A stretch of 64,000 nt of DNA from Owenia fusiformis. Lineage: Eukaryota > Annelida > Polychaeta > Sabellida > Oweniidae. The notes beneath the pieces are model-generated. The model made no database searches. It had not been told where the DNA came from and saw only the letters and a list, made by a program, of their open reading frames with translations. The DNA lies in assembly GCA_903813345.2 (NCBI GenBank), contig CAIIXF020000004.1:7087525-7151524 (forward strand). Direction: 5' to 3'. Below are positions 30,641 to 60,316 of the stretch, piece after piece; position 1 is the stretch's first letter; every line of letters begins with the position of its first letter. A program made the position numbers and the translations under genes.

Positions 30641-30872
30641 TCATCTCAATACACCACCCTGCTCTTCCCAAGGTATCCCATAATGCACTTCATGCGGTAA
30701 TGCCCAACGACGTGGGTAGAATGTATGTTGATCAGAATAGTTAGATAGGTTCACTATTGATGACATATAGAGGTCTGCTAGTCTATGTAAGCGACGGAAG
30801 AAGTATGTTGGGTTGTGGTATGTTCTGAATACACTGCCAAATTGTGGGTTGAATACTTCCTTCGAGAAATTC
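30641..30872 (-). CDS. NT5DC-like exon 14 (terminal)
   Basis: Encodes [20 protein letters not shown], then TFYPRR and the C-terminus, ending GGVLR before TGA at 30643-30641. Acceptor TTCTTCCAG. Its 5' part and acceptor have a diverged copy 199 bp upstream. Confidence 0.95.
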
Positions 30873-33800
30873 CTGGAAGAACACATACATGTATATTGTC
30901 TATGTGCTAATGGCATAAATAATGGAGAAGAGTCGAGAGGAGGGGAAATAACAAGAAACAAAGCATTCGCATGCAAAATTTCACCACCTGCCATTTGTTA
31001 CAGACAACGAACACAAAAAGTTCTGAATACTGCTGCCAAATTGTGGGTTGAATACTTCCTTGGAGAAATTCCTGAAAGAAAAAAGATGTCATGGTGGTTA
31101 TATGTTCAAATCGAGGAAAGAGTGAAAGGGGAGAGCCAACATAACTCCTAAAATCCCCCTATCTAGGCACCTACTCCCCCACCCCAGAGACTTACTGCCT
31201 CACCCCTAGGGAACTACCTTAAAACATCCCTCTCTAAGAAACTTATCAATATAACCAATAGGAACCTCCTACCTCCCCCCCCGGAGATATACTCCCCTAA
31301 CCCCAGAGAATTACTCCCCCACCCCAAGGGACTCACCTTAAATCATCCCTCTCTTTCATCCAGACATGTAGCACCTCTTGAGATTCTGAGTCATCGTAGA
31401 TCTACAATGATAGATCATCATGTTTTCAACATTTATATGGTTTATAGGGTCTGAAGTGATTTGTATTAACCTTGCATTGATATTGATGAATAATTTCAGA
31501 TTTGTGTATACTTTTATCATGTTAACAATGAGAGGTGTTTTATTATCTTTAATATAATAGCAAAGATGTTCTCGTTTGCATGATTAAATACATGTAGAGT
31601 TTATGTCTGTAGATCTTTGTGTGTGTGGGAATATATAAGCGCAAATGCCAAAAGGATAGAAATGTCAGTTGTGCTTCCTCTGGTGAGTTCGCGCATTAAC
31701 ATCAGCTGCCTCTAGTCAGATCGACTGACAAAACAACCTTTTTAGGGGTTGTCGAGTTGGCCGAGAGGGCTTGAGCGCCGGCACGTTCGAGCTAGGCCAT
31801 TGGGCGCCGTAACCACGGGGTTGCGAATTCGAGACGCGTGTGCTCCTTGTGTTTATTCATTTGAAATTTTATTAAAAATTGATATCACAATTCGTACCTG
31901 AAGCCTCTCTATTAAGTTCTGTAGTGTGATCATCCATGCCATTGAAGTCTTGAATGATATGGAGTTTTGGATTGAAATCTCATTCTCTAGTTCAGGAATG
32001 ATAGCACCTGTTCGCCAGCCATGTCTTAGCCCTGGATCCTGCAGTGGAAATATGTTGTACAGGGTGTTCCAAAAAACAAAAGGAATCCATTATAAATTAT
32101 GATGAAATTATTATAGATATAGAAGGCTCCACTTCTTGGGAAAACAACATATCAGTGTCAATATAAACATCAGAACTGTTTTTGATGTTTTTTTTAAAAA
32201 TCATGAATTCTTAGAAATTTAAAATAAATTCATTTAGTCTAATTGAAATGACTAATTAAAGTTCATGTTAACAAAAGAAGTTAATTTATTAACTTACAGC
32301 TAAGTCACTGTATACATGGTCCCCACAGTATAACACCTGAGATCCAATCCAACCTGTCATTCCACTGAATAGAGACACATTACCCTGTAATAACATAAAA
32401 TAACATTAAGTTCAAGTTCAAGCTGTCACCGGGGATTTTTGCTTGAAGAGGGTACAAAATTCGGAATTTTAACAATACTGACAAAATACCAATTTTTAAA
32501 AATTTTCTATTATTCAAGCAGTTGGAAATCATGGATTATCACAAAGCATACTTTTTAAAAATTTTCTATTATTCAAGCAGGTGGAAATCATGGATTTTCA
32601 CAAAGCATACTTTCAAAATTTTAAATTAAATTGATACATTATTTGCTCAAGGATGATGACTCAGATTTACTAGAATTTCACACGTAGCTTGGCAAGGTGT
32701 GTCCGATTCCAGCCAATCCAAACAGAGTATTCAAATGATGAACAGTGTGTGAAATATCAATAACACATGCATGGTCACTAGTTAAACAGTTGTCATGGTG
32801 ATGAATGGATTTTTCACATTGGATTTGATGACTTGCCAACTTGACTCTTGAAAAAAGTTTCATTGAAAATGTGTTCTTTCAGTGATTTTGTTCCTTTTAG
32901 ATGATTTTATCGAAAAAGCATTGCAATGTGTGAGAAGAATTAAAGCCCAAGACTCAATGCATTGTAGCTGCTTCATTCCACTCAGGCGTTGTTTCCTAAA
33001 CTTTGCATTCCCGCTGCGAAGTCATGCAAAGGTTTGGAAACAACACCTCATGGTATGATTCAGCAAACAATGCATTGAGTCTTGGGCTTAAATCCTTTAA
33101 TAATTGCTTTAAAAACATGTGTAAATCAATAAGTTAAATCAAAGAAGTAATGAATTATGAGATACATAATCAGAAAGGAAATGAACTTTCGTGTAACTGT
33201 GTTAGAAAAATTTTCAAAACCACAAGAATAAAATACATATTAATCAGTAGCATGTATCCAACATACCTCTTGGTATATTTTTCCTTTTTGTAATGATGAC
33301 ACTCTGTCCCACGTCCGCATACCTGTCTCCTTCTCATATATTCTAAATGGCCGAGACTTCTGATGAAAGAACTTAGGTTTTCTAGCGTTGACTATACACA
33401 CATCAAACAAATCCATCCAATCAGGGCCAATCATATATGTCATTCCCTTGTCCCTGAAATACAAAGTGTAAGCCCCATATATAATAGCTAATCATATATG
33501 TCATTCCCTTGTCCCTGAAATACAAAGAATAAGCCCCATATATAATAGCTAATAATATATGTCATTCTCGTGTCCCTGAAATACAAAGTGTAAGCCCCAT
33601 AGATAATAGCTAATCATATACATGTACTGTATGTCTTTGCCTTGTCTCTGAAATGCAAAGTGTAAACCCCATAGATAAAACAGCTTATCACATTTGTCTC
33701 TGAAACTTGTTAGAATATGTAGAAATTCATGTAATTTTGAGAGATATTAGATACAGTGTATTCACTTCACAGAATGAAGGTTAAGCATCTTTCCATAGGA

Positions 33801-36800
33801 TAGCAGACAACTATCTACATATACAGAGGGTACCAAACTAGCACTCAAAAATAAGTAAGAAATTGCCTTGCATGCATGCTGTGAAAAATCGGATATTTTC
33901 AAGACACACAGTCATAAATATCGCACTTTTATTTACCCAGAATGCACATTCTAATCAGATGTTGGCACTGAGTTTGCTCTTGCTTCTGTAAAAATATCAA
34001 GTTGAACGGATAACCAGGATGGATAATTAGCAGGAGTTTGTCATGGGAGCAAAAAATGAGTTCACAAGTAGTACTAATATCCCAGGAGTAATAATCTACT
34101 ACATCATAGCACCCTCACTTACACAAATGGGAATCCACTGTTACTAAGCAAGAAAAGTTTTTTCCCTGCAGCTGCCAAATTCTGTAAGAGTTCCGCAACC
34201 TCTGGGCCTTTCTCAATATACACATCTGAAAAACATTTTGAAGCATTTTCTGCATTTCAACATGATAATATACCAGTGATTTCCCCAACAAAGTAAGTGG
34301 GTGCAGCACCCAACTGTTCACCCACTTTCACCCACCTGAAAACTCATTTCCACCCACTTGAAAATGAGAAAAATCATGAAAATGAGCATATTTTGACGAT
34401 TACTCATATACTGTAAAAACACAGTGGAAACAACCCCCCCCAGAACAACCCTATACATGTATCAATATTAAATGTTCTATCATCTATTAAAAAGAAAACA
34501 GGCCTAAGTGAATTACATACAGTATCAATATTAGGTAATTTAGTCTATCATGTGTTAACTCACCTAAGTTTTCCATTATTTTCTGATGCAGAAGTCCAGA
34601 GGTGTGAATACCTTGAACTGCATTCTGAAATATAATGTATATGTAATGTATCTAATGTATATGCAATGTATCTAATGTATATGTAATGTATGTAGTATAT
34701 GTAATGTATCTAATGTATATGTAATGTATGTAGTATATGTAATGTATCTAATGTATATGTAAATGAATATGCTCAGTTAGAGGCTCCACCAAACTGTTAC
34801 TCTGATTTTTTCAAATTTAAATTGCACTACACTTTTCAACATTCAGTAAAAAGTGCAATACATGTTATTTTATGAATATTGAAATTTTCAAATTCAAACT
34901 TACAGAAACGTTTTACACTTCATATGAAACGATAGTAAACACAAGTTATTCAGAGTTGATATGCCAAACTGATGAGTTAATATGTTAAATAGATGAGGAA
35001 TCTTAAAAAGGCATCAGTTTATTAAAATAAAAATGTCATATCAGATTTGTCAATACCTTCAATCCTCACACACAAAAAGTGACATATGATACTCTACCCG
35101 ATCGCCTATTCATTTTCTACTTACTCTGACATCATAGAAGACGTACTCTGGGTCATAAGCAATGTTCTTCTCATTGAAGTACTGTAAAGAAAGAATAATG
35201 AGAAATGAGTCCAGTCAAGAGCCCCTCACTAAAACAATCCACAGTCCCTCCCCAAAACAATCCAAGGTCCCTCCCCAAAACAATCCAAGGTCCCTCCCCA
35301 AAACAATCCAAGGTCCCTCCCCAAAACAATCCACTGTCCTCCCCAAAACAGTCTACAGTCCTTCCCCAATACAATCCACAGTCCTCCCCAACATAATCCA
35401 AAATCCCTCCCCGAAACAATCCACAGTCCCTCTCCAAATATTTTACAGTCACTGAAATGTTAATTGAACCTCTATAAGTAAAACTACCAAATTTAAACTT
35501 CCATGGAACTAAGAGTGTTAATCACAAACACAGGTATACTGTACTAGCATGAACTTATTGTTATTTATTCGCCATTCGAAGTTTACATGAGACCCCCTCA
35601 CCCGAGAAAGGGGTGGAAATTTTGGCAAAATGAATTGAACTGTCAATTTACCCAGCCTGAGAGCAAAAATAGCTAGTCAAAATCCTTTGAATGGTGCATT
35701 AGTGTAAATATAGTTTTACCTGTGTTATATTAGATAGAAGGGTCACCTCAGGCAAGGCAAATAGATCCATAAGCTGGTGCATTGCATTCTGAAATACAAA
35801 TATACAATATAGAGTCATGTATTGCATTCTGAAATACAAATATGCAATATAGAGTCATGTATTGCATTCTGAAATACAAATATGCAATATAGAGTAATGT
35901 ATTGCATTCTGAAATACAAATATGCAATATAGAGTCATGTATTGCATTCTGAAATACAAATATGCAATACAAGTATAGAGTCACGCATTGAGAAAAATTA
36001 GCAAGTTAATAAAGTAAAAGTATGAGAGGACCGTTTTATTGTATCAATGGTTCAATACATATCAAGGATAGACCTACCTTGCCGAAGAAGGGACTGACAT
36101 ACTCAACAGACACATGTGTCCCTCCATATAGTTCTATCACTTCAGAATATTCCACTGGTTCTAGACCTCTACAATACAAGGGTACACATTTCTAATAAAT
36201 ATATCATATACTATTGTATTGTCTCTTTATGTTTTACACAACACTATTAACCTCTTGACTAGAGATTTCTTGTCACCTCAGAAATGAGCTTGAAACCCAG
36301 AGGGACGAGAAAATCTGTCACAACATTTTCACAAAAATTGCTCTTATTTGAACAATTGTCATCAAAGGACGATTCTCGGTTTGGAGAACAATCTCCTGGG
36401 CTAATAATTTTTTTCATGAAAAATATAGAAATATTACCCAAATTAAACTTTGAATATTCAAAAGAGAACATTTAAATCCACAAAATGTAAAAATAACAAA
36501 TTGGTCTGAAGCAGGGATAATGCTCAATTAGATCGATTCAATAAAATACAAGTCTCGATTTGGGGAAAGAAGTTCAATAGTGTACTGCACTAATGTTTTT
36601 TTTGCGAAAAATCTAGAAATATTACCCAAACTAAATTATGACTATTCAAAAGAAGACATTCAAATCTATATTATGTGAAAAAAATCAAATTTGTCCGAAG
36701 CAGGGATAATGCTCATTTAGATTGATGAACTTCGTTCTCCAAACCGAGAATCGTCCTTTACACCAAAATTTTTTAAAACATGTAGAAATGATCTCTGCCA

Positions 36801-39800
36801 TCTAATTTTACTAAGTTGAGCATTTTAACTTGTATAGGTATGTAGTAAAATGTCAAAAGGTGGCAAATATGAAACATTCTCTGGTTTCAACCAATTTTAG
36901 AGCCTGGGATTCAAGAGGTTAAGACAAACATTTTAGCATATAAGTGAATGTAAATATATTATTCAATGCAGGATGAAGATTCAAGGTAGCCTTAAACAAT
37001 ATATAACCTGAGGAAAAATATAACATTTATCTGAATGGAAAATAAAATTAATATGATATCCGAGGGAAAAATATGATATCTGAGAGGGGAATATGATATC
37101 TGAAGGAGGAATATGATATCTGAGGGGAATAAGGTATCTGAAGGGGAAATTTCATATATGGGGGAGCGAAATGATATCTAAGGGAAAGATATGATATCCT
37201 ACCTGTATACTGTCCCTGGTTGTATGTTGTGGAAAGCATCAATTTTCATTAGCAATCCCTGAAAGAAAGATAGTGATCATCATGTCTACATAAATGTGAT
37301 ATATACTCTCATGAATACCTAGCCTTAATATAAACTCATGAGATATCTGAAGATGAGGACGAGGACAATTCAGACTTTGTGTGCAAAACCTTTCAGAATT
37401 CAAACTGACTCTTTTATGTCATAATGGTCTTTCTGATGTCTTACTGATTCTTTTTGTGTCATACTGATAGTTCTAATATCATACTGACCTTTCTGATGTC
37501 ATAATGGATCCCCCTGACAGCAAATCCAGGGTTGTACTCCAGACCAAGTATTGCTTTAGGGTACTGAAAGTACAAGTTTACAACAGATATAGACCAGTGT
37601 TTTTGGGTGATAATTAACATGGGGTATTGTTCAATTTATATCAACATTAGAATGTAAAATCAAACTTCCATTGCAGTTAGGCAGGCACACAAATAAAAAG
37701 AAAAAGGCAAAAAGGACTGTTAAAACTTTTTTTAACATTTTAATTTACTATAACTTGCAAAACTCTTCAAGACTATTGAATTTTTACTGTTTCACTATTT
37801 GTATTTTCATTTTTCAAATATTTATGTGTAAATAAACAAATATATTCAAATAAATATACAAATACAGTCTATCTAACATTTTATTTGTTGTTGCCATATC
37901 TATGTTTGTGAATTATGTTTTTATACTCATTGCTTGTATATTTTGTAGCTCATTAATTCAAATGATTTTGTTACCACATATTTCTTGAATTTATCTGTTT
38001 GCACACTGATGTGCATCTCAAAGTCATCAAAAGTATTTGATTGGGATATACAATTTTAGTATTTAAACAATCAATTTAAAGGGTTGCAGTTTATTTGCTT
38101 ATTTTGATATTCACTATATTCAATGACTCATCTTATTGAATATTACTTATGAATATTGTAGCAGGTCTGACGCTATACAAAACAACAGGCAAAACAAATT
38201 GCTTGTAATGTTTGTTACTTATGTAACCTCTGTACAGCGTACAAGGTTCAGTAACCTACAGAAAGTAAATAAGGCATTGCTTGCTAAAAAAAGACCATAT
38301 CAATGAACTAAGCAGTGAATTGATGGATTCTCTACCTAAACTTAACAACAGTTATGAGCTCATAGGCCAATTTATTCAGCAATTCGACAAGAAGGTTAAG
38401 ATGTGAAATATCTTAGGTAAATGAAACATACCACAATAGACAATATTACAATATTAACTGATGAAACCATGTACCAAGAATTATATCAGTATTGTTGTTA
38501 AAATCAATTTAAATCAGATCTTCGCAATAGTCTGCTTTTGTGTAAATCTGTGTTTAGCTTTAAGTTACAAACAATGATTTTCTTGCTACCTCAGTGAGAG
38601 GATTTCTTGTGCTTCCAATTCACATGGCCATCAGCACAAGTGCAAGAAAAATAGAACATCATGTTAAACTTTTCTATTACATCCTAGACTCAATGATGTG
38701 TGACTATGAGTGACAGGTCTGACCCCCCCCCCACCCCCCGGGCAAAAATTCTTTCAAAATCATGCAGTTTTTCACCATTCTGAGCACTTTTTAAGTGTAT
38801 TTGGTCATTTTTGGACCAAAATTGTCAGAAGTGAACCCCCCCTGGAATTTTTCAAATCCTGGCAAATCCTGGCTATGGACCCGAGTGACCAGATATAAGA
38901 GTAGACTGTTACTCCACATGTGCCCTCCCCCAAACTCTGCATTATACACTTACTGCTTACGTTTCATACCTCTCTACCTAAATTCAGCCTATATTTTAGA
39001 GTATCTCTTGGTTTATATATTGGATATTGATAAAAGGAAGCTTTTTAAATAAACAATAGACTAGATGCGAGTAGAAATAATCTTGATTTACATCATTTCA
39101 TATTCAAAATTTAGTCAAAGTGATATCATATTTTCTTGTGTTGGACAGATAATGTTATCTTTTAGCCTACCTGACATATTTTAAATTGTATAATTATATC
39201 AGACACAGAAGGGTAATATAAAAATTGGTCCACTTTAACTGATCAATATTCAAGTTTAATGGAACTATCTTATATACCATCATATTAATAAACCTGAATG
39301 AGCCACCTGGTGGTGAAAATGGTAACTAAATACTCGCATCTGAGTTATTTTGAAAATATAGTTTGTCAACATTTGGATGGGCAGAGGAAATAATCCAGAA
39401 TTCAAATTCCTATTTTTATGTAAAAAAATTAACCTAGAGGTTCATTTTCACATGAAGATAGATTCAACTTTGAATTCTGGGATATTCCCCACCTCCTGTT
39501 TCAGGGCTGACTTTTTCAGACACTTACTTTTAGCTGGTTCACTAGGGCCTCCCTGCCAAGCTGGTAAATGAGGAAATGAAGCTCATCCCTGTATGACGCC
39601 AACGTGTAGTCATAATCAAAGCCATAGACGTTGATGTCACCGAGACTGAGCTCATTGTTAGAGAAAATAGAAAGTGGGTCAACGTTGGGGGCAGCGGGAC
39701 GTGCTGGAAAATAAAGCATGAGTGATTAAGTAATATTATAGAGAATATAAACTGAGTGCTGGTTAATATTAAGGGGGGGGGCTGATTAGTCCATTTTTAA

Positions 39801-42800
39801 ATAAAACTGAGCAAAACACAAAATAAAAAGTGGGTCACATTGGGGGGAAAGATGTGCTGGAAAATAAAGCAATATGCAATAATGTAAGTGAAACATTATT
39901 TGAGAATTGAGAAGATAACAGTCGGGTCACATTAAGTATGGTGGGGCATGGATTATAGCTGACAATTGTTAAGTCTAGAAATATACTAGGTCAACAATAA
40001 GGGCGTTGGGGCATGTTGGAAAATAAAGCAATAGAGGAAGGTTAATTAGGTGATAAAAGCTAGATTAACAAGATTACATTTTAATAATTCATGGAAAAGA
40101 AATTATTTACCACTATACAATTCCATAAAATCAATTCCACATAAGCTTAGAACATGCGAATTATTAGGCAACCAATCCATCACCTCATCCTTTTTAATTG
40201 TATCCCTAAATACCTTAGGCCCTGATTCTTCAAGAAGTATGATGAAACATGTTCAATTCACAAATATTCACCAAAGATTCAAGATTCTGACATTTCACGA
40301 ATCAATTCCCTCGATCAGGGGGGGGGGGAATTAGGAAACAAGGAAACTAATAAAATCTCAATTAATAATCTAAGTAAATAAAGCACCTTTTATGAAAAAA
40401 TGAAAGATTTAGGCCATGTTTGGAATGAGTTATGTTCATCCGACATGGTAATCAAAATGGTGAGCAACAAAACTGTATATAATATTTGTCCTTTTCAGAA
40501 GCTAGCAATTTCTACTGCCTTTGGGCCTCTCAAGGTATGAAGAAACTTACAGTAAATAGATTTTCTCATCAATCAGTTATATCTGTATTAGTGTACACTC
40601 TTAAAATAGCTGCATGATAATTTATGTTATTTTTGCGTTTGTTTAAAATACCTGACTTGCATTCAAGTTCAAGCAACTGCATATAATTAATATGTAGTTT
40701 TCAAACTTTTGTGAATGGATGTTGAATGGATTTTTTCTTCAACATGTATTGTAATGACTTCAGTATGAATGAAATGTCCCTTGGTCTTCTGGTCTTGGAT
40801 TGTGATATTGGTTCTTGAATGGTGGGGGAAAGGGGGTATTAGACATAGTTTCTTTTCACGTAAGATCATTGTTTTGGGCTATATGGGGTTTGTTTTTCTT
40901 GACTGGTATGCACTTAGAAATTGCTTTTTCTTGCCAAGTTCCATTACAACTTTTGGTCCTTTCCCTTTGGCACTAGTGCTTATATATTTCAAACAAACTT
41001 TAAAAGTATTTTTTAATTTACACATGAGATACAGCTGATGAGATATAGAGGATACATGAAGAGGGAGGGGGAGGAGTCATGCAAGACTATATGGATTTTG
41101 GAACTAATCACTGAAAGATGAAGTGGATGGATTATTTAGATTCAAGATATGTAATTAAAAATGTGATTAAATTGTTGTATAACTGAGAATATATCAATTT
41201 TCTACTTCAAAATACAAGATGTAAACAACATAAATAAAAATCCAAAGTTCAAAGAACATACTACAGTTCATTACCATTAAGTATGAAGAGTCTCTAGAGA
41301 TCATGTGACAAAATCAAATTAATAGTGAGATCTTGAAAATGTTTTGGTGAGAGGATCATTAGGATGAGATTAAAAAAATTACAATTATTTACACATTCTA
41401 CATACTGCTATCGTTTTTCACAACTCAATAAATGATCATTTGTAGCTATTTATATCTTAGATTTAAGAATTGTTATTCATTTTAACTTAACATAAAAGTT
41501 GTGGAAACCTGTCCAACTAAATAAATTGACATTGATAATGATACAATGATAATTGGTAATGAAAACAATGATAATTGACTGGACTTGTCCAAAGAAACAA
41601 AAAACAATGAAAACAACAAGAAATACATGAGGGTTTTGTTATGGAAGATTTTGGAGGGTATATCCTGAGGGCAAAATAGATGTCTTCCTAGGGTCCGGAG
41701 GATCCGAGGTAAGATATCATATTTCAAAACCAAGCATCACATAACTAATTTATCCTAAAACATGTGGGGTCTTCAGACATGCATATCCAGCTTTGTTTTC
41801 TTTTAAGTGTTTTCATTATAATTATTTTCGAGAAGTCTATCAACATATTTTGACCAATTTTAGTCTGAATTGTGAAACTGAGAATTTTGCACCCACTTAA
41901 GAGAAAATCCTGTGGAGAACACTGTGATAGTTAGCAGAACTTGTAAATGTTGGACAATATTCTTAAGTCAATAGCATTAACAAAGGTGAGAAATGTCAAA
42001 AGAATCTGATGAAAATCAATATCACCCACTTACAGTGAACTGTTTCTTACAGATAAGTAAATACATTTAAGTCAACAAAGCTGAAATACATGTATCTAGA
42101 GCAGTAGGCTTAAAACAAGACTGTTGAATACAGTAAATGCACAATCAATTTTGTCCCATCCTCTGACTGTCCGCCTATAAAAATAAATGATCGATTTTCT
42201 GTAGAGGGTCTGAGAATAGCCTAGGGTGGGACAAATTCTGGTTGTTCGATATTGACCAGCAAAGATAGTAGGACTGAAAATTGTTTGCAATGACTTTAGA
42301 TAATAGATCTAAGGCAATCATTTTGTTAAAGTGTTTATACACAGTAACACTCTATGCTTCTACAAATGGCACAAGAGGAGGGAAAGCCCCAGAGATTTAG
42401 AGATAACAGACATACATGTAATTACGTCTCGTGCTAATACCACGTTCGTTTGTTCAGATTTTCGACTAGTTTCAAAAACCTACGTTTCCATGTGATATTT
42501 TAACCGATGTAGGCATATTCTGCAAATCTTATCTTGATGTGAAATAAGCTACATGTATCATATCAGTTATAATGCCAGAAATAACATAATATTATTTGAA
42601 GCGTATTTAGAAAATTTTGAGGCTGACATTTTGTTTGCCAATTTTGATCAGAGACGTATGTCATCTCAATACAGCTTTACATTATAAGCATGTAATCTTT
42701 GAACTCTGGAGTACACATACAGTGCAGTACACTGTAAACTGTAGGTCAAAACTCAACTGACCTTACTCACGTCGAGAGCTACTATGTTAGATTTTGAAAG

Positions 42801-43533
42801 TATAGCTCTCCATCGTGAGGATCTCCCAGCTGAAGAATTGTGACATCTAAATTTGATCGGCGCCAGTCAGCGGCTTGCTGTTTGTCTCAAACTGTAGCCT
42901 ACATATGGGCTCATATGTGTCTACTTTCCCCGTGCATGTAGGATCGCGGATGTGCTTCTATGGCGATCAGGAGTTCTAATCGTTTTTTGTTCGATACCCA
43001 TTTCCAATATGGCGGTTAAACGGAAATGCTATCGACGCATGCGCAACTTGGGAAACGTCAAGCCGCCATATTGAATATACCTGGCCAAAACTTTTGACAC
43101 GACCAATAAAATGAAGTCCTGATCGATACATAGGGCAGTGAGACGTTCTATAGTTGAGCTGAATGAAAGATGGCGATGTAGGATACATTTTCAGGTATAT
43201 AATGTGCAACATGAGTCAGCTGAATTCCCTGAAATTTTCTTTGAAGTCAGGATTCTTAAGCTGTTGATTCTAGCGATAGAGAGCTATACTTTCAAAATCT
43301 AAGAAGCTCTCGACGGGAGTAAAACTGACCTTCTTCTAAGGCTAGAGACTCGAGTAAAACTGACCTTTCACTGCAGCCTTTGCTCTGTTATATTCATTCC
43401 ATAGCATCTGTTTGGATTCTCCAAGTGACGAGCCCAGTGATCCTACATATCTGTAGTTGTGTGTTATCCTACTAATATTGTGAAATTGGCTTAAATACAG
43501 ACATCGTCTGCATATTCTTGAAAGTGTGGCCAT
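30641..43533 (-). CDS. NT5DC2/NT5DC3-like 5'-nucleotidase domain protein, complete 14-exon gene
   Basis: HAD-superfamily protein of the cytosolic-5'-nucleotidase-like NT5DC group. Joined coding parts on minus: 43533-43365, 39703-39528, 37563-37489, 37258-37203, 36168-36078, 35788-35720, 35181-35125, 34624-34564, 34225-34123, 33453-33267, 32384-32298, 32038-31898, 31401-31337, 30872-30641. All introns are GT/AG, all junctions keep frame, and the total is 1569 nt = 522 aa, close to vertebrate NT5DC2/3. The nucleophile motif GFDYDYTLA is at 84-92 (catalytic Asp86/Asp88), FLLSNS (276-281) is HAD motif II and GDHVYSD (369-375) motif [12 protein letters not shown] and TFYPRR near the C-terminus are family hallmarks. 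The N-terminus ([11 protein letters not shown]...) is Arg-rich without acidic residues, so mitochondrial import is plausible. An in-frame ATG at 43599 is less likely as start. Substrate is unknown for the family. Paralogue (2, 3 or 4) not resolved. Confidence 0.96.
31010..31085 (-). pseudogene. Partial duplicate of NT5DC-like exon 14 start
   Basis: On minus, CTTTCAG|GAATTTCTCCAAGG followed by AAGTATTCAACCCACAATTT repeats the acceptor and first coding bases of exon 14 (30872 downward) at a spacing of 199 bp. The copy loses the frame of the real exon after NPQFGS and has no downstream coding match, so it is a decoy or dead exon fragment inside intron 13. Confidence 0.8.
31337..31401 (-). CDS. 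NT5DC-like exon 13
   Basis: Encodes [20 protein letters not shown] then L and two bases of Arg. Acceptor CATTGTAG, donor TTAAG|GTGAGT. Confidence 0.93.
31751..31850 (+). mobile_element. tRNA-like SINE head
   Basis: GTCGAGTTGGCCGAGAGGGC resembles a tRNA-Ser/Leu 5' half with A-box TGGCCGAGAGG. GGGTTGCGAATTCGAG (31817-31832) resembles a B-box with an extra base. The acceptor stem does not close. It lies in intron 12 of the NT5DC-like gene, on the opposite strand. Confidence 0.6.
31898..32038 (-). CDS. NT5DC-like exon 12
   Basis: 47 codons starting [20 protein letters not shown], which is near-invariant in the family. Acceptor CACTGCAG, donor CAG|GTACGA. Confidence 0.95.
32298..32384 (-). CDS. 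NT5DC-like exon 11
   Basis: 29 codons. Contains [13 protein letters not shown] with HAD motif IV. Acceptor ATTACAG, donor GCT|GTAAGT. Confidence 0.95.
32490..32612. repeat. Two-copy 64-bp tandem repeat in intron 10
   Basis: TTTTTAAAAATTTTCTATTATTC...GGAAATCATGGATT.TCACAAAGCATAC occurs twice in a row. Confidence 0.9.
32945..33087. mobile_element. Palindromic MITE with TTAAA flanks
   Basis: GCCCAAGACTCAATGCATTG is inverted at the other end (CAATGCATTGAGTCTTGGGC), and pairing continues inward through GTTGTTTCC/GGAAACAAC. TTAAA lies on both sides (32940-32944 and 33088-33092). 143 bp, in intron 10 of the NT5DC-like gene. Confidence 0.9.
33267..33453 (-). CDS. NT5DC-like exon 10
   Basis: Encodes [20 protein letters not shown] through the Lys-rich [12 protein letters not shown] segment to GKIYQE. 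Acceptor TTTGTATTTCAG (the same 12-mer as exon 6), donor GAG|GTATGT. The acceptor and exon start are copied in a 61-bp repeat. Confidence 0.95.
33430..33705. repeat. 61-bp minisatellite spanning the exon 10 acceptor
   Basis: The word CCCTGAAATACAAAG (minus: the acceptor TTTGTATTTCAG plus exon start) occurs at 33452, 33513 and 33574, with weaker copies near 33646 and 33698. The first is the real acceptor; the next two also copy about 24 nt of exon sequence. Confidence 0.95.
34123..34225 (-). CDS. NT5DC-like exon 9
   Basis: Residues 252-285 plus two bases. Ends [16 protein letters not shown] motif II. Acceptor TTTTCAG, donor TTTGT|GTAAGT. Confidence 0.95.
34280..34410. repeat. Dispersed AGTGGGTGC-family repeat
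   Basis: AAGTGGGTGCAGCACCCAACT, then CACCCACTTGAAAATGAGAA and ATCATGAAAATGAGCATATT. In intron 8 of the NT5DC-like gene. Confidence 0.65.
34564..34624 (-). CDS. NT5DC-like exon 8
   Basis: Encodes [20 protein letters not shown] plus one base. Donor TTAG|GTGAGT. The acceptor is fronted by an ATGTATATGTA-rich tandem repeat. Confidence 0.93.
34628..34762. repeat. Tandem repeat before the exon 8 acceptor
   Basis: ATGTATATGTAATGTATCTA-type units of about 21-29 bp start 4 bp upstream of the exon 8 acceptor and run about 130 bp into intron 7. Confidence 0.9.
35125..35181 (-). CDS. NT5DC-like exon 7
   Basis: 19 codons: [19 protein letters not shown]. Donor AGA|GTAAGT. A 23-bp minisatellite starts about 40 bp upstream of its acceptor. 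Confidence 0.93.
35215..35452. repeat. 23-bp minisatellite, about 10 copies
   Basis: The unit CAATCCAAGGTCCCTCCCCA plus AAA repeats with variation through intron 6, ending about 40 bp before the exon 7 acceptor. On minus it is G-rich (GGGGAGGGAC), so G-run splicing elements are repeated as well. Confidence 0.95.
35720..35788 (-). CDS. NT5DC-like exon 6
   Basis: Encodes [18 protein letters not shown] then SNITQ. Acceptor TTTGTATTTCAG, donor CAG|GTAAAA. The acceptor and the first 8 nt of the exon belong to a 40-bp tandem repeat. Confidence 0.95.
35781..35978. repeat. 40-bp minisatellite spanning the exon 6 acceptor
   Basis: ATTGCATTCTGAAATACAAA is found at 35781, 35821, 35861, 35901 and 35941, exactly 40 bp apart. 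On minus each copy is a full acceptor TTTGTATTTCAG followed by the first bases of exon 6 (AATGCAAT). Only the copy at 35781 leads into the exon. Confidence 0.97.
36078..36168 (-). CDS. NT5DC-like exon 5
   Basis: Encodes [17 protein letters not shown] then [13 protein letters not shown]. Acceptor ATTGTAG, donor AAG|GTAGGT. Confidence 0.95.
36251..36918. mobile_element. TTAA-flanked TIR element in intron 4
   Basis: CCTCTTGA at the left and TCAAGAGG at the right, each next to TTAA (36247-36250 and 36919-36922), as for piggyBac-type insertions. Inside, GGACGATTCTCGGTTTGGAG (36369) is inverted at about 36732-36757, and ATATAGAAATATTACCCAAA-type text occurs twice. No transposase frame. Confidence 0.8.
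37045..37200. repeat. GATATC minisatellite abutting the exon 4 donor
   Basis: Units of about 21-24 bp such as AATATGATATCTGAGAGGGG repeat seven or so times and run directly into the donor (minus: GTAGGATATCATATC), so intron position +4 onward is repeat sequence. Confidence 0.9.
37203..37258 (-). CDS. NT5DC-like exon 4
   Basis: Encodes [18 protein letters not shown] plus two bases of Arg. Donor AG|GTAGGA. The donor runs straight into a GATATCATAT minisatellite (37045-37200). Confidence 0.95.
37489..37563 (-). CDS. NT5DC-like exon 3
   Basis: 25 codons: [14 protein letters not shown] then [11 protein letters not shown], a strongly conserved family segment. Acceptor CTTTCAG, donor AAG|GTCAGT. 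Confidence 0.95.
38714..38882. mobile_element. MITE family A copy in intron 2
   Basis: Starts CAGGTCTGACCCCCCC and ends CCTGGCTATGGACCC, flanked by GAGTGA (38708-38713 and 38883-38888). Internal TTCAAAATCATGCAGTTTTT matches the copy at 7850. Confidence 0.8.
39528..39703 (-). CDS. NT5DC-like exon 2
   Basis: Residues 57-115, including the DYDYT nucleophile motif. Acceptor TTTTCCAG, donor AAA|GTAAGT. Degenerate copies of its 5' end and acceptor lie upstream in the intron (39825-39875 and 39985-40030). Confidence 0.95.
39730..40035. repeat. Intronic copies of the exon 2 acceptor region
   Basis: AAAGTGGGTCACATTGGGGG then GATGTGCTGGAAAATAAAGC (39828-39869) copies the start of exon 2 and its acceptor (CTTTATTTTCCAG on minus). 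A more decayed copy is at 39988-40030, where CAG has become CAA. Confidence 0.85.
40036..42762. other. Intron 1 of the NT5DC-like gene; no exon recognised
   Basis: AT-rich intron sequence with a decayed AGTGGGTGC-family fragment near 41850-41930. Open frames at 40050-40334 and 40769-41038 have no recognisable domain or splice support. Confidence 0.45.
42763..43325. mobile_element. TIR element in intron 1
   Basis: ACGTCGAGAGCTACTATGTT then AGATTTTGAAAGTATAGCTC at the left is inverted at 43266-43322 (GAGCTATACTTTCAAAATCT, AGCTCTCGACGGGAGT), giving terminal repeats of about 55-60 bp. The interior contains ATATGGCGGTTAAACGG and GCCGCCATATTG, another inverted pair. No coding capacity. Confidence 0.8.
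43365..43533 (-). CDS. NT5DC-like exon 1
   Basis: Residues 1-56 plus one base. Contains the probable targeting sequence and the [16 protein letters not shown] segment. Donor AAAG|GTCAGT. The donor region AAAACTGACC is repeated 35 bp downstream in the intron (43323-43332). Confidence 0.85.
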
Positions 43534-54030: not shown

Positions 54031-54629
54031 TATGCATTGATATTGAATTCAGTTGCAATAAGGTTGAGTTGTCTTGTCTCATTATTGCATACTGCAGTTA
54101 TTTGTCTGTCTGTGTGTCTCTCCACCATCTGGTTCCCATAGCAATTTTATGTTGTTACTCGTAGAGACTTCAGTTGAAATGCACTTCACTTGCTTCCTCA
54201 AGATTTGTGTGTCTGTATGATGTCTCCTGGTTGCTATAGTGACTGTGACTTCTGACTATGAAGAAATGCATTATGGGAAGCCACTGCTACAAATTCAGCC
54301 TTTTCATTTGTTCATAGGTTATAAAAAACTGGAAACTGTTAAGGATTATTTTGCATAATTTAAGTATTTCTTTTTAACATAACAAAATCTTACAAACTCC
54401 TCCCAGCTTTTGCTCCACCAAAAAATATGGGATATACTGGCCAGATCGATACATACATTGATACATACGTACATCTGGCAAATATATCCTGGTGTCTTGC
54501 GAATACCAAGGGGTGGCAGTTTTTTTCTTTTGAAAAGGTATATCATGCTAATTTTTAAGAAAGCCCATGGAAAACTTTTAAGTATGTTTTGAACCTTAAA
54601 ATCCCATTGGGGGAAGTTCATAAACAACT

Positions 54630-54797
54630 TTATACACATAAAATGATAAAATTGACTCTATGATAAAAATACTTTGAAAATGTATCAAATAATTGTTTTG
54701 TGTAACGAAAGGATACTATAATATTCCAAGGTCCTAGTCTAACCCAGTTTGGTATAAAACCTTTATATAACGCTGCAACACCTTCTGTCCGCACAGT
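54630..54797 (-). CDS. SLC25A30-like exon 8 (terminal)
   Basis: Encodes [18 protein letters not shown] and VRLGPWNII to the C-terminus; stop TAA 54632-54630. Acceptor TTTTTGCAG. The last 20 or so residues ([13 protein letters not shown]) are unlike vertebrate ends. Confidence 0.92.
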
Positions 54798-57700
54798 CTG
54801 CAAAAATAATACCATATATGGTAATCACAATGCTATAAATCACCCAGACAACAGTGATTTCAAGCGTCATTCAACACTATTAGTGTGTCAAACAATATCT
54901 TAATATGTCATACAATACATACACACTTCAATTTGACATGCATTTGTTGTAGGTATAAGTGTATTTGTTCAAGTGTCATACAATATTTTCATGTGTAAAA
55001 CAATATTTCCATGTATAATACAATATATGCATATTTTCATGTGTCATACAATAATGCTTCCATGTGATTTACAATATATGCATTCATACAATAATTAGAT
55101 GGGTCAATTAACGTATTGAGCAAGTATGTATTGCAGGAGAGGCACCCTGAGGTAATGTGTCACAGAATACTTCCCTGTGTTGTACAATATATATTAATAA
55201 TAAATTATGGACGCTGGTTGACAGACATTATAATAAATATGAACTTATGATATACCAAATTAAAGATAAGTAAATTCCCTATCCACTGGTATATAATATG
55301 ACATGTTTTCATAAAAAAGATCAATACATGTATTTGTTTTTGAAATACGAGTGTCCCATTTTTTGGACCACCCTGTATATTATACAATACTTAATGCGTC
55401 AAACAATATCCATGTATTATACAATATTTGCATGTCATACAATACTTACATGTGTCAAACAATATCCATGTATTATACAATATTTGCATGTCATACAATA
55501 CTTACATGTGTCATACAATGTAATGAGCTAGTATATATTGCTGGTGAAGCACCCTGAGATGTTGTCTTCATCAAGTTTTGTTGATTCATGAGCCTTGTTT
55601 TGACGACGTCTACTGGATTGGAACATATTGCACCTAGTAGACCTGCTATAAAACTGGATCTGGAAGTTGAACGAAAGGAATAATGTAACAAAGCTCCCTA
55701 TTAAAGCAAGTGGGTGCTGCACCCATTTGAGATTTTAATGCTTGCACCCAACTGAAAATCCATTTGCACCCGCTTGAAATGAGAAAAAAATCATGAAAAA
55801 TCAGTCTATTTTAACTTTTGGTCTAAATTATGAAAATAAGAGTTATGCCCATCTTGAGGAAAAATCTTGGGGAGTTTTAGTTCTTGCAAATGATTCAAAT
55901 ACTAACAATATGGTACAGGCACTGTTGGTAACACAGAAAAGGTTGCTATAACAATAGTATTTCATTCTTATGTCCCAAGTAAAACAAAAATATATAATCA
56001 CACGGTACTAACTTCGACCGTTAATTTGAATTTTTGACCTACCGGATGTTTGAAAATCAAGGATTACGAGTCTCGTACTGCACCGTTTTTCTTCAAACTT
56101 GTTCCATTCAAAGCATAACAAAAATCCCTTTCTGTTGGTGCATTATTCTCTTAAACAGAGTCCCTACTTCCAGCGGCATTTTGGTCCCCAGCTGTAAGAA
56201 GGCCTTCTAACAGCTGGGGACCAAAACGGCGCTAGAACAAGGGACTCTTTACAATAAAGTAATGCACCGACAGAAAGACAATTTTGTTTTGCTTTTAATG
56301 GTAACGTTTGAAGAAAAACGGTGCAGTATGAGACTCGCATTCCTTGATTTTCAAGCATCTGGTAGGTCAAAAATTCAAATTAACGGTCGAAGTTAGGACC
56401 GCGTGATAATATGTCTTCTATAAAATTATATAAATTAATAAGTGGTAATTTCGCCCAATCGTTTGATTTATGCCTATTGATTAATTTTGCCAGGTTTGAA
56501 AATTAAATGTCGGAAATAATATCTTTATAATGCTATCCCATGGGAAGTTTCTTGTCATAAGGAAAATCAAAATTAGGAAAATGATAAAATTTGGCCATTC
56601 GGCAAATTAACCACTCTGATTAAATGCCACTTATACAGCAATATATAGGGAAATAATTTATAGTATAATAAATAGTTATTATTTGAAAAACTGACTTACA
56701 TAAAATGAGTGTACATATTGTCTCCTAGTAAGCCATGGTTTATGATGTGTTTTTTCGTAATATCATAAGCAGGTAACTCAACACCGACAACAATGGCTGC
56801 CCTATTTGCTGTGGGTCCCACACCCTAAAATATATCAAACGTTAATTGATTTAGGAAATATATCAAACGTTAATTGATTTAGGAAATATATCAAATGTTA
56901 ATTGATTTAGGAAATATATCAAATGTTAATTGATTTAGGAAATATATCAAATGTTAATTGATTTAGAAAATATATCAAATGTTAATTGATTTAGGAAATA
57001 TATCAAATGTTAATTGATTTAGGAAATATATCAAATGTTAATTGATTTAGGAAACATATTAAAAGCTAATTGATTTCTGAAATAGATATGTATTGTGTAA
57101 GTATAATAAAACAGATATGGAAATAGAATAATTAATATATTCACTTTTGTTTTACTTGTTAGTTCTTTGTATGTTTATGCAAATAAAATAATGCTAACGA
57201 AACAAACAAACAAACAAACAACATTTACAGCACTTTTACGATTCCCAATTGACTTAATGTTAAGTGAACTTCTGTAAGTGGAACACTTTTCAATTGGAAA
57301 ACTTCACTTTTTAGAGTTACCAAATGTATACGATTTTCTATGTTGTTTTTGTTAAGTTAGTACAAAGTCATCCTCCTATCACAGGGCTTCAAAATCCAGA
57401 ATATCTTCTTTCTTTTTACCTCCTGCGATAAGCTTTTAGCATTTCCCCGATTTGATTCGCTGTCGTAACATTGCAACAGCAATCATGTATACCTCATTGG
57501 CGCACAATTAGATCATATGATTCAGTTTTATCGGGCGCTTCCAAATTGGTTATAGCAGGGGGAAAGAAGGAGGTATGGATTCTGGACACCTGCCTAGGAG
57601 GATGGTGCAAAGTGTTTCAAGCAAATGTTAACCACTTACCCTCCATAGGCCTCTTACTCCTTCATTCCTATATATATGTCCAAAGGCTTGGATGAGCCCC

Positions 57701-60316
57701 ATCTTCTTAAAGCTCTCATTTTGAGCTTGGAATCGTACCTGAAGTAGCACATTAAAAATAAATTTTCACAATGAAATTATTGGGTCCTTTAAGGTCATTC
57801 TTAAATTTTAATTCTCATAAACGATTCAATTCTCATAAAAAAGAAACTTGAACAAAAATGCAATATTCTATCAAAATCGGCATTGACTGGGAGAAATTCC
57901 ATTTTTAAACTTATATGCCAGTGGGATGCCAAAAAGTCTACTTGGCAATATTTGGAAAACAGAATTTTGATATATTTTATATATATTTTTTACGAAAAAT
58001 GGTGGCCATTTTGAATTGAGTGGCCATATTGAAAATTCCCCCTAGAGCAGAAGTCCTCAGCCCATAAGGCATAAGCCTATCAAATCAAATTCGTCAACCT
58101 GTATTTGAGTTAGGGCCCATCTCGGTTATAAGGCCTCCATTTTAAATGGATTCGATTGGGAGTCTAGTCTTCCAAAGTATTCATATTGTTTTTCTTACCT
58201 TCAAGACATCTGTAGGATTAGCTATACAGCTTGATACTATACCGGCTATTACGCCACACACCATATTTGGTAATAACTTTTCATCTAGAAATAAAAAGTA
58301 AAACAATTCACATTATATTTTGAACACCCCTCAAATTCCCACAGAATTGTTTTCTGCAAATAAGAGGATTCTGTGCGGGAAAGGGCCAGTTGTGTATAAA
58401 TTCTTAAAGATTTCTTGACAAAAATGTTGGAATATTAAAAAATGTATGTTTTGAATATATATTTTGAATATTGAGCTTTAGGATATAATAGTACAATAAC
58501 GTCATTTCTAAGGGCAATATAGTGAAATATATATATTGCTCATAGAAATGACGTTATTAGTATTATTACCACCGTTAACGACCAGGGCTGAAATAGCAAG
58601 AAAATCTTACGCACTGAACGATATCTAATTTCCCGGGGAAAAGTTGCCGGTCCAGAATATATTCTAGACCGGTCCATATGGACCACCACTATGATGTCAC
58701 ACATTTCTCAGGTCGATAATCGATATAGTAAAATGAACGCCTTCTAAACTAGCACTAAAACCCCTAGAACTGGCCCGGCAAGGTGGTAATAATGTCGATT
58801 ATGCATGAAATTCTGTACAAATTCATCACAATTCAAGTTTCTGCAACTTTGTGAGCTACTATAAGCTAATTCAATCTGCGCTCAGTTGAAATGGCACAAT
58901 GACAGATGTAATTGTAAAACATTTAAGAAATTGATTCAAAAAGTTTTTATTTTCAAATGTCTAAGAATCATTGTGCTTCTACATTAGGCTAGATAACAGT
59001 CTTATGGCATATACTGCATATTATATGGCATTACAAAATAAGTTAACAGCACGATGTTGTTCCTTCATGGTTACCTTTTGGATCTTTGCATATTGCCCTC
59101 TTGAGAGTATGATATATTCCTATCTTTATAGTGCCATATGTTGCTTGACGTAACACTGCGGGTTTTAACCTACAAAAACAACATGAATGGGTGTCATACC
59201 AAAAAAATACCAAAAGTAACACTGTCTGTTTTTTTGTTTTTTAACATTTACTTCAAGAATAAAACATATATACATTTATACATAGGCCAAATTACATTGT
59301 TTACTTTCTATACAGTAACACTGTATAACTGTATAACAAATACAGTAAACTCACCCAGAAATATATAAAGCTTTAAAGTCAGATTAATAATTCGATTGAG
59401 TACTTTGAATCTAAAAATTAGCAATCAAAGGACCACATTGCAATAGTATATGCAAAATTAGAAACATTCACATTCTGTTTTGTAGTTTGGCTGTCATATG
59501 TGTGGCCTCTTATATTTTGACGCTTCTCTGCCATGCTTTGTTCGAAAAAATAACATGGCTGAAACTCCCTAAATTACAAAAGGCCACAGCTTTGCTGCAC
59601 ATTATACCTAACAATCTGAAATAAACAAAAGTTAGGCCTTATAGATATGTTTTTATTTTTCATATACTTTTGCAACATTGTCATTTGATTGCTTATTTTT
59701 TATATTCAAAGTACTAAATAGAATTTTGAATCAGACTTTAACTCCTTCTTTACTACCAATTCTATACATAGCATGGAACATGCCCCGGTATTTCAACTCT
59801 CAAATACAGTAAACTCACCCAGAATATAAAGCTTTAACTCCTTCTTCACTCCCAATTCTATAAATAGCATGGAACATGCCCCGGTATTTCAACTCTGTGT
59901 GCTTCACATTAAGTTTCTGGCCTTGAATCTGAAGCCGTGTCTTGCTTGTGTCAATCGGGAAAGTCCCTGGAAAATGTAAAGGTGTAAGTGAAACAAAGGT
60001 ACTATTCTCATATGACCCATTATATGCCCCCTCTGAAAAACTTAAAGTGTACAACTGTAAGATGAAATCTCATTAAGAATGTACATATCAAATGATTTTT
60101 TTTATCCCATCGTCGATGGAACCAAACAAAGCCATCTTTTTGGGATATGCGAAGTATTTATTGGTATTTGGAACTACCTATGTCATCCATTTCATGTAAA
60201 TTATCTTTCCAAGAATATATTAATAATAATTAAAAAATAAATCAAAAGAAGTACTCACCACATTCTGCTATTACAGATGACAGGCCACCATAGACAAATG
60301 GTCGCCAATCATTCAT
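54630..60316 (-). CDS. Mitochondrial carrier of SLC25A14/SLC25A30 (UCP5/UCP6-like) type, complete 8-exon gene
   Basis: SLC25 carriers are inner mitochondrial membrane transporters with three repeats of about 100 residues. Joined exons on minus: 60316-60259, 59966-59819, 59169-59075, 58284-58199, 57738-57640, 56824-56700, 55659-55506, 54797-54630; 933 nt = 310 aa plus stop. All introns are GT/AG and all junctions keep frame. The signature PxDxxK is present three times: PIDTSK (23-28), PTDVLK (124-129) and PVDVVK (219-224). [10 protein letters not shown]-like, [23 protein letters not shown] and [19 protein letters not shown] segments place it with the KMCP1/BMCP1 group (human 291-325 aa). Human members have been linked to transport of inorganic sulfur anions and phosphate; the substrate here is not shown. 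The start ATG at 60316 gives the short N-terminus usual in SLC25A30. Several junctions carry local tandem duplications. Confidence 0.95.
54850..55505. repeat. TCATACAATAT-rich tandem sequence running into the exon 7 donor
   Basis: Loose units with TGTGTCATACAATA words from 54890 to 55120, then a tighter array from 55380: ATACAATACTTACATGTGTC occurs at 55437 and 55493, 56 bp apart, the last being the real donor (minus CACAT|GTAAGT). The copy at 55437 is a complete duplicate donor. A mariner-like end (GGACCACCCTGTATA) lies at 55363. Confidence 0.85.
55506..55659 (-). CDS. SLC25A30-like exon 7
   Basis: Carries the third PxDxxK motif ([16 protein letters not shown]). Acceptor CTTCCAG, donor CAT|GTAAGT, chosen because it keeps frame and the exact spacing to exon 8 expected from the family. 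The donor region is tandemly copied in the intron. Confidence 0.92.
55690..55890. repeat. AGTGGGTGC-family dispersed repeat
   Basis: CAAGTGGGTGCTGCACCCAT, then CACCCGCTTGAAATGAG and GAGGAAAAATCTTGGGGAG. In intron 6 of the SLC25 gene. Confidence 0.65.
55995..56410. mobile_element. About 415-bp palindromic element in intron 6
   Basis: The two halves are inverted copies: ACTTCGACCGTTAATTTGAA and GTGCACCGTTTTTCTTCAAA-type text on the left reappear reversed on the right. The centre is near GAAGGCCTTC (56200-56209), flanked by CCAGCTGT/ACAGCTGG. A transcript would form a stem of about 200 bp. Confidence 0.9.
56700..56824 (-). CDS. SLC25A30-like exon 6
   Basis: Encodes [20 protein letters not shown] then [21 protein letters not shown]. 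Acceptor TATATTTTAG, donor TTTTAT|GTAAGT. The acceptor is directly preceded by a 28-bp tandem array. Confidence 0.95.
56825..57070. repeat. 28-bp minisatellite at the exon 6 acceptor
   Basis: AGGAAATATATCAAATGTTA plus ATTGATTT repeats about 8 times with exact 28-bp spacing, beginning at the acceptor itself: on minus the pyrimidine/branch region ACGTTTGATATATTTTAG is the last, modified unit. Confidence 0.95.
57372..57608. repeat. Dispersed repeat, copy 2 of an inverted pair
   Basis: Reverse complement of 52216-52465 (CTTCAAAATCCAGAATATCT ... GCAGGGGGAAAGAAGGAGGT ... CTAGGAGGATGG). It ends about 30 bp from exon 5 of the SLC25 gene. Confidence 0.85.
57640..57738 (-). CDS. SLC25A30-like exon 5
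   Basis: 33 codons, [20 protein letters not shown] then [13 protein letters not shown]. Acceptor TACTTCAG, donor AGG|GTAAGT. Confidence 0.95.
58199..58284 (-). CDS. SLC25A30-like exon 4
   Basis: Encodes the helix [20 protein letters not shown] with the second PxDxxK motif. Acceptor ATTTCTAG, donor AAG|GTAAGA. Confidence 0.95.
58490..58800. mobile_element. Inverted-repeat sequences in intron 3
   Basis: AATAACGTCATTTCTA (58496) is inverted as TAGAAATGACGTTATT (58541-58556) around a short AT-rich loop. Directly after, TATTACCACC (58561) and GGTGGTAATA (ends about 58793) form a second, wider inverted pair. Probably one or two small MITEs. Confidence 0.6.
59075..59169 (-). CDS. SLC25A30-like exon 3
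   Basis: Encodes [20 protein letters not shown] then [11 protein letters not shown]. Acceptor TTTTTGTAG, donor AAAAG|GTAACC. Confidence 0.95.
59339..59376 (-). pseudogene. Downstream half of a duplicated exon 2 fragment with donor
   Basis: Minus TTAAAGCTTTATATATTTCT then GG|GTGAGTTTACTG copies the last bases and donor of exon 2 (59819). It was separated from its other half (59738-59806) by the TTAA-flanked MITE at 59377-59737. Confidence 0.85.
59377..59737. mobile_element. TTAA-flanked MITE family D copy 1
   Basis: AGTCAGATTAATAATTCGAT and its imperfect inverse AATAGAATTTTGAATCAGACT bound the element, with AGTACTTTGAA.ATAAAA continuing each terminal repeat (over 60 bp). TTAA on both sides (59373-59376 and 59738-59741). 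A second copy in opposite orientation starts at 63641. Confidence 0.9.
59738..59806 (-). pseudogene. Upstream half of the duplicated exon 2 fragment
   Basis: Minus GAGTTGAAATACCGGGGCAT through GAAGGAGTTAA copies exon 2 ([17 protein letters not shown]) with few changes. It starts 13 bp after the real donor. Together with 59339-59376 the frame of the copy was intact before the MITE inserted. Confidence 0.88.
59819..59966 (-). CDS. SLC25A30-like exon 2
   Basis: Encodes [20 protein letters not shown] through [20 protein letters not shown] to LYSG; the first PxDxxK motif. Acceptor TTTTCCAG, donor TCTGG|GTGAGT. Confidence 0.95.
60259..60316 (-). CDS. SLC25A30-like exon 1
   Basis: Encodes [19 protein letters not shown] plus one base. 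Start ATG 60316-60314; upstream text (TTTCAGATTGACAA) looks like an acceptor just before the ATG, so a further non-coding 5' exon is likely. Donor TGTG|GTGAGT. Confidence 0.92.

Follow-up and report, generated by a model that had tools for sequence, protein, structure and literature searches.

Junction-spanning minisatellites, termed mirages, were described in amphioxus, where they occur in Adh3, the globins BflGb6 and BflGb9, TnC and PGBD5 (PMC3087553, PMC3902484). According to the accessible parts of these papers, they are minisatellite-like repeats over donor or acceptor borders, with units of 10 to ~160 bp, many of which carry an AG or GT. The accessible part of the globin paper adds that duplication can affect both borders, that splice signals are present in many units, that the length varies and that splicing is regular in the genes tested there; for amphioxus globins, a gain of introns through tandem duplication was proposed (PMC3087553). 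The repeats presented here match these structures, as a first, sequence-only reading of this DNA had supposed. They differ in apparently belonging to a non-cephalochordate and in being known from sequence alone; the present analysis also estimates their frequency and tests whether junctions are preferred. Minisatellite arrays also lie at exon-intron boundaries in human segmental duplications, as internal tandem repeats; in the part of that report available, they are variable, occur in recent paralogues and form novel introns, whereas here there was no sign that arrays had made introns (PMC2812944). For the earthworm, the accessible part of one paper describes minisatellites within an intron (PMC12783039). 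In the literature searched, outside which most subscription papers fall, no protostome had previously been described as having minisatellites across splice junctions. Intron gain by tandem duplication is reportedly treated in Rogers 1989, Zhuo 2007, and Gao and Lynch 2009. Duplicated segments carry splice sites in that model as well as here, whereas the present sequences show no sign of an intron created by duplication.

The window, meaning the whole stretch of 64,000 nucleotides that was analysed (G000:C4:7087525-7151524), comes from an assembly of 498 Mb in 525 contigs. Twelve contigs of chromosome size total ~477 of the 498 Mb. A cluster of four mir-2 matches, three of them over the cut-off, was found at G000:C3:15959502-15964738; mir-2 is a protostome family, and the cluster points to a protostome. 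Together with the twelve large contigs it indicates a non-cephalochordate, and amphioxus was set aside as the source. Searches for GFP (PF01353) and COX1 gave no match; the GFP result weighs little, as its controls were silent as well. A search of the 64-kb window against Rfam gave no match. Two genes of the window were spliced by script, and every junction context had to be unique:

30641..43533, minus strand: NT5DC-like gene (5'-nucleotidase family), spliced model with 14 coding exons; PF05761, E 3.8e-152
54287..60316, minus strand: SLC25A30/14-like mitochondrial carrier gene, spliced model with 9 coding exons; PF00153

The NT5DC-like protein has 522 aa and matches PF05761 in a single stretch (profile positions 1-459 of 460); the SLC25 carrier has 295 aa and matches PF00153 in three stretches. 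Since the matches are continuous in both genes, the reading frames probably hold across the junctions, 42 in the two genes together. The SLC25 exon 8 donor (window 54716/54717) was very weak, at -0.8 bits, yet the frame runs on into exon 9.

Repeats at these junctions were recorded in two ways. Tandem Repeats Finder (TRF) arrays were counted at a period of at least 9 and a score of at least 50. By local alignment, 50 nt around each junction were compared with 800 bp on either side, and a copy had to span the junction with a score of at least 16. The features found, from the NT5DC-like gene to the SLC25 gene, were:

30827..31080, minus strand: NT5DC exon 14 acceptor and a copy 199 bp upstream, by local alignment; absent from the TRF list
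31235..31354, minus strand: NT5DC exon 13 donor, copied downstream in diverged form, by local alignment
33429..33620, minus strand: 61-bp array over the NT5DC exon 10 acceptor (33453/33454); unit including 25 nt of exon, two strong decoy acceptors
34633..34762, minus strand: 20/38-bp array, 8 bp upstream of the NT5DC exon 8 acceptor; best local copy without the junction
35223..35438, minus strand: 23-bp array, 41 bp upstream of the NT5DC exon 7 acceptor; no junction copy found
35781..35969, minus strand: 40-bp array over the NT5DC exon 6 acceptor (35788/35789); exon part of 8 nt, with four acceptor decoys at 10.7 bits
37050..37198, minus strand: 20-bp array, 4 bp downstream of the NT5DC exon 4 donor; best local copy without the junction
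37400..37506, minus strand: 20/40-bp array over the NT5DC exon 3 donor (37488/37489), by TRF; absent from the sequence-only reading
39680..39871, minus strand: NT5DC exon 2 acceptor, copied upstream in diverged form, by local alignment; a further copy near 40.0 kb by eye
43332..43367, minus strand: NT5DC exon 1 donor, copied downstream over 21 nt, below the cut-off
55382..55519, minus strand: 56-bp array over the SLC25 exon 7 donor (55505/55506); with one decoy donor of equal score
56828..57084, minus strand: 28-bp array, 3 bp upstream of the SLC25 exon 6 acceptor; best local copy without the junction
59337..59895, minus strand: end of SLC25 exon 2 with its donor, and a downstream copy split by a fold-back insertion

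TRF arrays crossed 4 of the 42 junctions, two donors (exon 3 and SLC25 exon 7) and two acceptors (exons 6 and 10), so that tandem repeats lie over both types of exon-intron border; another four junctions had an array at 3-10 bp, which makes 8/42 crossed or no more than 10 bp away. A junction-spanning local copy was likewise present at 8/42, namely at the acceptors of exons 2, 6, 10 and 14 and the donors of exons 3, 13, SLC25 exon 2 and SLC25 exon 7. Those of exons 2, 13, 14 and SLC25 exon 2 were absent from the TRF list. The similarity of the copies was far above chance, as a reversed-sequence null reached a score of at least 17 in 0.05% of cases, counted over 1914 test windows that were taken from the sample loci introduced below. 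The element that splits the SLC25 exon 2 donor copy (window 59362-59752) is MITE-like, with long imperfect inverted repeats whose arms are ~80% complementary.

Eleven junctions had been named at the outset as lying in or next to local repeats. This list proved largely right. Three of them were crossed by a TRF array, three had one at 3-8 bp and three had a local copy that is absent from the TRF list. The three abutting arrays, at the donor of exon 4 and the acceptors of exon 8 and SLC25 exon 6, gave best copies without the junction. The weaker items were the exon 1 donor, whose 21-nt copy ~35 bp downstream fell just below the cut-off (score 16.6) and started too close to the junction for the spanning test, and the exon 7 acceptor, which is 41 bp from its array and showed no copy. 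The exon 3 donor (crossed) and the exon 13 donor (copied) had been overlooked, and the interval given for the pattern did not include exon 14 or the SLC25 gene. In structure, these are mirages: repeat units contain an exon end with its splice site, often accompanied by strong decoy sites, and many but not all units keep the AG or GT signal. By reading the sequence, each window unit was found to hold either an acceptor alone or a donor alone. Splicing of the genes may be regular; in the used copy, both the frame and the profile match run on unbroken.

The sequence-only reading had further proposed that repeats favour junctions over random intron positions, which did not hold up. When the same arrays were circularly shifted around each gene, 2.44 crossings were expected in the NT5DC-like gene against 3 observed (P 0.43), and 1.34 in the SLC25 gene against 1 observed (P 0.77). 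Junction-spanning copies, at 8/42 junctions (19%), were no more frequent than copies at intron points within 300 bp (20.2%, n 917); the figure was 8.3% at exon points (n 120) and only 5.0% at intron points deeper than 300 bp. Clustering of copies near exons is real in these two genes and speaks against the explanation preferred below, although it is reversed in the genome sample, where the gradient runs the opposite way. The impression of a junction preference arose because the arrays of the two genes sit in short-intron parts. Array coverage was 12.6% in the window and 7.1% in the sample, and copied junctions at a score of at least 17 were more frequent in the window (10/42) than in the sample (15/364; Fisher P 5e-5). 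This excess, which also speaks against the explanation preferred below, is matched by the local array density. Elsewhere in the window, dense arrays based on a palindromic motif, ACCATGGT, were seen at 18325-20336, and a 124-bp unit repeated 15 times with 93% identity at 4998-6848, distant from both genes.

For the genome sample, introns between adjacent exon matches of six families (PF00118, PF00225, PF00227, PF00153, PF00063 and PF08393) were collected. It comprised 105 stretches from ~85 genes and 228,390 bp, with 187 introns, 182 of them called, and hence 364 junctions; the GC content of the first 68 loci was 35%. Calling looked for GT-AG junctions and drew on reading frame, position in the profile and a splice matrix trained with the set itself. 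The sample is restricted to conserved domains, and introns >6 kb or with profile gaps >16 were left out. The first four family searches contributed 301 of 358 match rows; those left out were 17 of the 18 copies of a kinesin array, many-stop rows, single-exon genes and, among the carriers, genes lacking introns and additional single matches. Further searches contributed 80 of 92 rows (12 alternative myosin exons were left out) and, in another, 79 of 80. The kinesin locus, L018, was known as an array before its stretch was retrieved, and that stretch was lengthened, so counts are also given without it. None of the listed arrays covers a junction of the five uncalled introns of the 187; the closest arrays are 18 and 39 bp away. 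Beside a myosin gene, at G000:C9:37986009-37994334 (minus strand), a single exon of the myosin head (profile ~18-84) was matched twelve times, by diverged and irregularly spaced sequences that look like a set of mutually exclusive exons.

Arrays crossed 10 of the 364 sample junctions, whereas 18.9 ± 3.8 crossings were expected from 3,000 circular shifts (P(sim<=obs) = 0.011). Without L018, 9/362 were crossed against 17.4 expected, and two further score cut-offs also gave fewer crossings than expected; an initial analysis of 101 introns (7/202 junctions crossed, 12.2 expected) had shown no enrichment either. The crossed junctions, four donors and six acceptors, came from ~10 of the 85 genes in the 105 stretches, and the pattern is therefore not restricted to the two window genes. 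Array coverage was 1.7% in exons, 2.75% at junctions, 5.6% in introns at 30-300 bp and 12.3% deeper in introns. The ratio of junction to 30-300 bp intron coverage was 0.49 (bootstrap CI over loci 0.26-0.79), and 0.40 without L018 and L068. Junction-spanning local copies were present at 13/364 junctions (3.6%), compared with 6.0-14.7% of intron points (6.0% at 30-100 bp) and 2.3% of exon points. Arrays showed no significant preference for the acceptor half of an intron (24 vs 15 introns, P 0.20). Arrays in the sample are not drawn to junctions but thinned there.

Tandem arrays are hard to assemble, and an artefact of assembly or gene models, with arrays or used copies misplaced, would also be in line with two sample calls: the automatic kinesin call took the wrong copy, and the call at L068 is doubtful (acceptor of 1.0 bits). 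Against this, frames and profile matches are unbroken in both window genes and 182/187 sample introns had consistent splice sites, which leaves an artefact with a minimal probability. Protein searches with the two window genes returned the window copy and distant relatives, and no second haplotype of an array-crossed locus. Two carrier-gene stretches that are ~95% identical (G000:C483:308305-311420 and C2:17735625-17738800) are probably two haplotypes in the assembly; a 10-bp unit differs between them by one copy, and no array there was long enough for a haplotype comparison.

Repeat formation might instead be targeted to junctions, with transcription, R-loops or RNA-templated repair duplicating splice sites. 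The high rate in the two window genes compared with the sample (the Fisher test above) would suit such targeting, as would two dynein heavy chain paralogues, L100 and L105, with arrays of 39 and 121 bp units at the same homologous donor. A process blind to exon borders explains this shared donor only as a coincidence, which counts against the explanation that we prefer. However, arrays were not denser at junctions than in nearby intron in the sample, where junctions were depleted, and in the two window genes junctions were affected at the local intron rate. What the sequence-only reading had named as speaking against itself, namely arrays no closer to splice sites than expected at random, is what the sample gave, with junctions even depleted. 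With the preference gone, the mechanism that it had put forward has nothing left to explain; a splicing-coupled mechanism is unnecessary, and we consider junction targeting very improbable.

Another possibility is that the arrays created the introns, by tandem duplication of exon pieces bearing splice sites. Such a model starts from duplicated splice sites, as presented in the accessible part of the amphioxus globin paper (PMC3087553). The crossed introns shared their position with a paralogue as often as others did, though (4/10 vs 58/172 uncrossed introns, counting paralogues of the same genome only), and so do not look newer; moreover, a window unit holds one kind of site, acceptor or donor, but never both. 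We therefore think it unlikely that intron gain accounts for these arrays.

Decoy sites were classed as strong when their score reached two thirds or more of that of the used site. They were present at 3/4 crossed window junctions and 7/10 crossed sample junctions (L008, L010, L024, L035, L045, L105 and L107). At NT5DC exon 6, four decoy acceptors reached 10.7 bits, compared with 11.5 for the used acceptor; at exon 10, decoy acceptors of 12.8 and 14.3 bits accompanied a used one of 12.8, and at SLC25 exon 7 one decoy donor scored the same as the used donor. Crossing arrays of the sample included between 3 and 97 nt of exon, with the kinesin array as the exception. The used copy was the one adjoining the exon body, which follows largely from how a junction is defined. 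The exon pieces of decoys were compared with the used copy for 7 of the 10 crossed sample junctions and for window exon 10, exon 14 and SLC25 exon 2. In gapped alignment, 17 synonymous and 34 nonsynonymous changes were counted, with 22% synonymous expected (P 0.06); the decoy exon pieces are near neutral, with possible slight constraint. An ungapped count (29 synonymous, 69 nonsynonymous) was dropped, being inflated by indels, mainly at L045.

The kinesin array belongs to the locus L018 (G000:C2:23266100-23270025, minus strand), which we take to be KIF4-like. It has 18 head-to-tail units of 159 bp, 97% identical, each consisting of 34 nt of intron end with the acceptor and 125 nt of exon. The last copy runs on in frame into NKPVVNRDP and then a donor of 5.6 bits. 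A reading as 18 whole exons with 33-34-nt spacers was ruled out by this in-frame continuation and the better donor, which make L018 an acceptor mirage. In the automatic call the first copy had been taken for the one with the used acceptor, which makes no difference to how many junctions count as crossed. Ten variant sites in the exon part comprised eight synonymous and two nonsynonymous ones, where 22% synonymous would be expected (P 1.6e-4). This suggests, for one locus, that the units are young copies of a translated exon edge or have been homogenised with it. Such a synonymous excess is unlike neutral decay, the pooled decoys lean slightly the same way, and both count against our preferred explanation.

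These kinesin copies, varying mostly at synonymous sites, and the many decoys as strong as the used site might point to an active role in splicing, in which decoys serve as alternative sites and arrays are regulated or tolerated as functional. Units of 40, 61 and 56 bp, however, shift the frame, decoy exon pieces of the other genes are near neutral expectation, and the published mirages splice regularly in the tested genes, as stated in the accessible part of that paper (PMC3087553). An active role has, in our judgement, a low probability.

Taking the observed structures, the frame-consistent copy, the decoys and the lack of junction enrichment in the sample together, we consider it probable that mirage-type minisatellites here come from a border-blind array process, whose units by chance include an exon end and its splice site. 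Array formation would ignore exon-intron borders and might proceed by replication slippage or unequal exchange. Arrays build up in introns and are rare in exons, with borders about half as dense as nearby intron, presumably through selection against exon damage. The copy attached to the exon body would be the one that is spliced, since the conserved reading frame runs on from it, and splicing would probably proceed correctly in the cell; the remaining copies would become intron, often retaining strong decoy splice sites. The two window genes would look special through lying in an array-rich stretch with arrays in short-intron parts.

As a wider and tentative proposal, to which we give somewhat less than an even chance, an exon-blind minisatellite process in a protostome duplicated the splice site at ~3-4% of junctions (13/364 sampled) and left strong decoys beside the used site; in some arrays, such as the kinesin one, the functional exon copy seems to have served as the source of new units. 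The analysis sets junction-spanning arrays, which are real and already published for amphioxus, apart from the unsupported idea of junction targeting, and they are now seen, with a frequency estimate, in an apparent protostome. If the sample is representative, an 'exon-body-proximal copy' rule for the spliceosome would apply at thousands of junctions, and the genome would offer a natural experiment in how the spliceosome chooses among near-identical sites.
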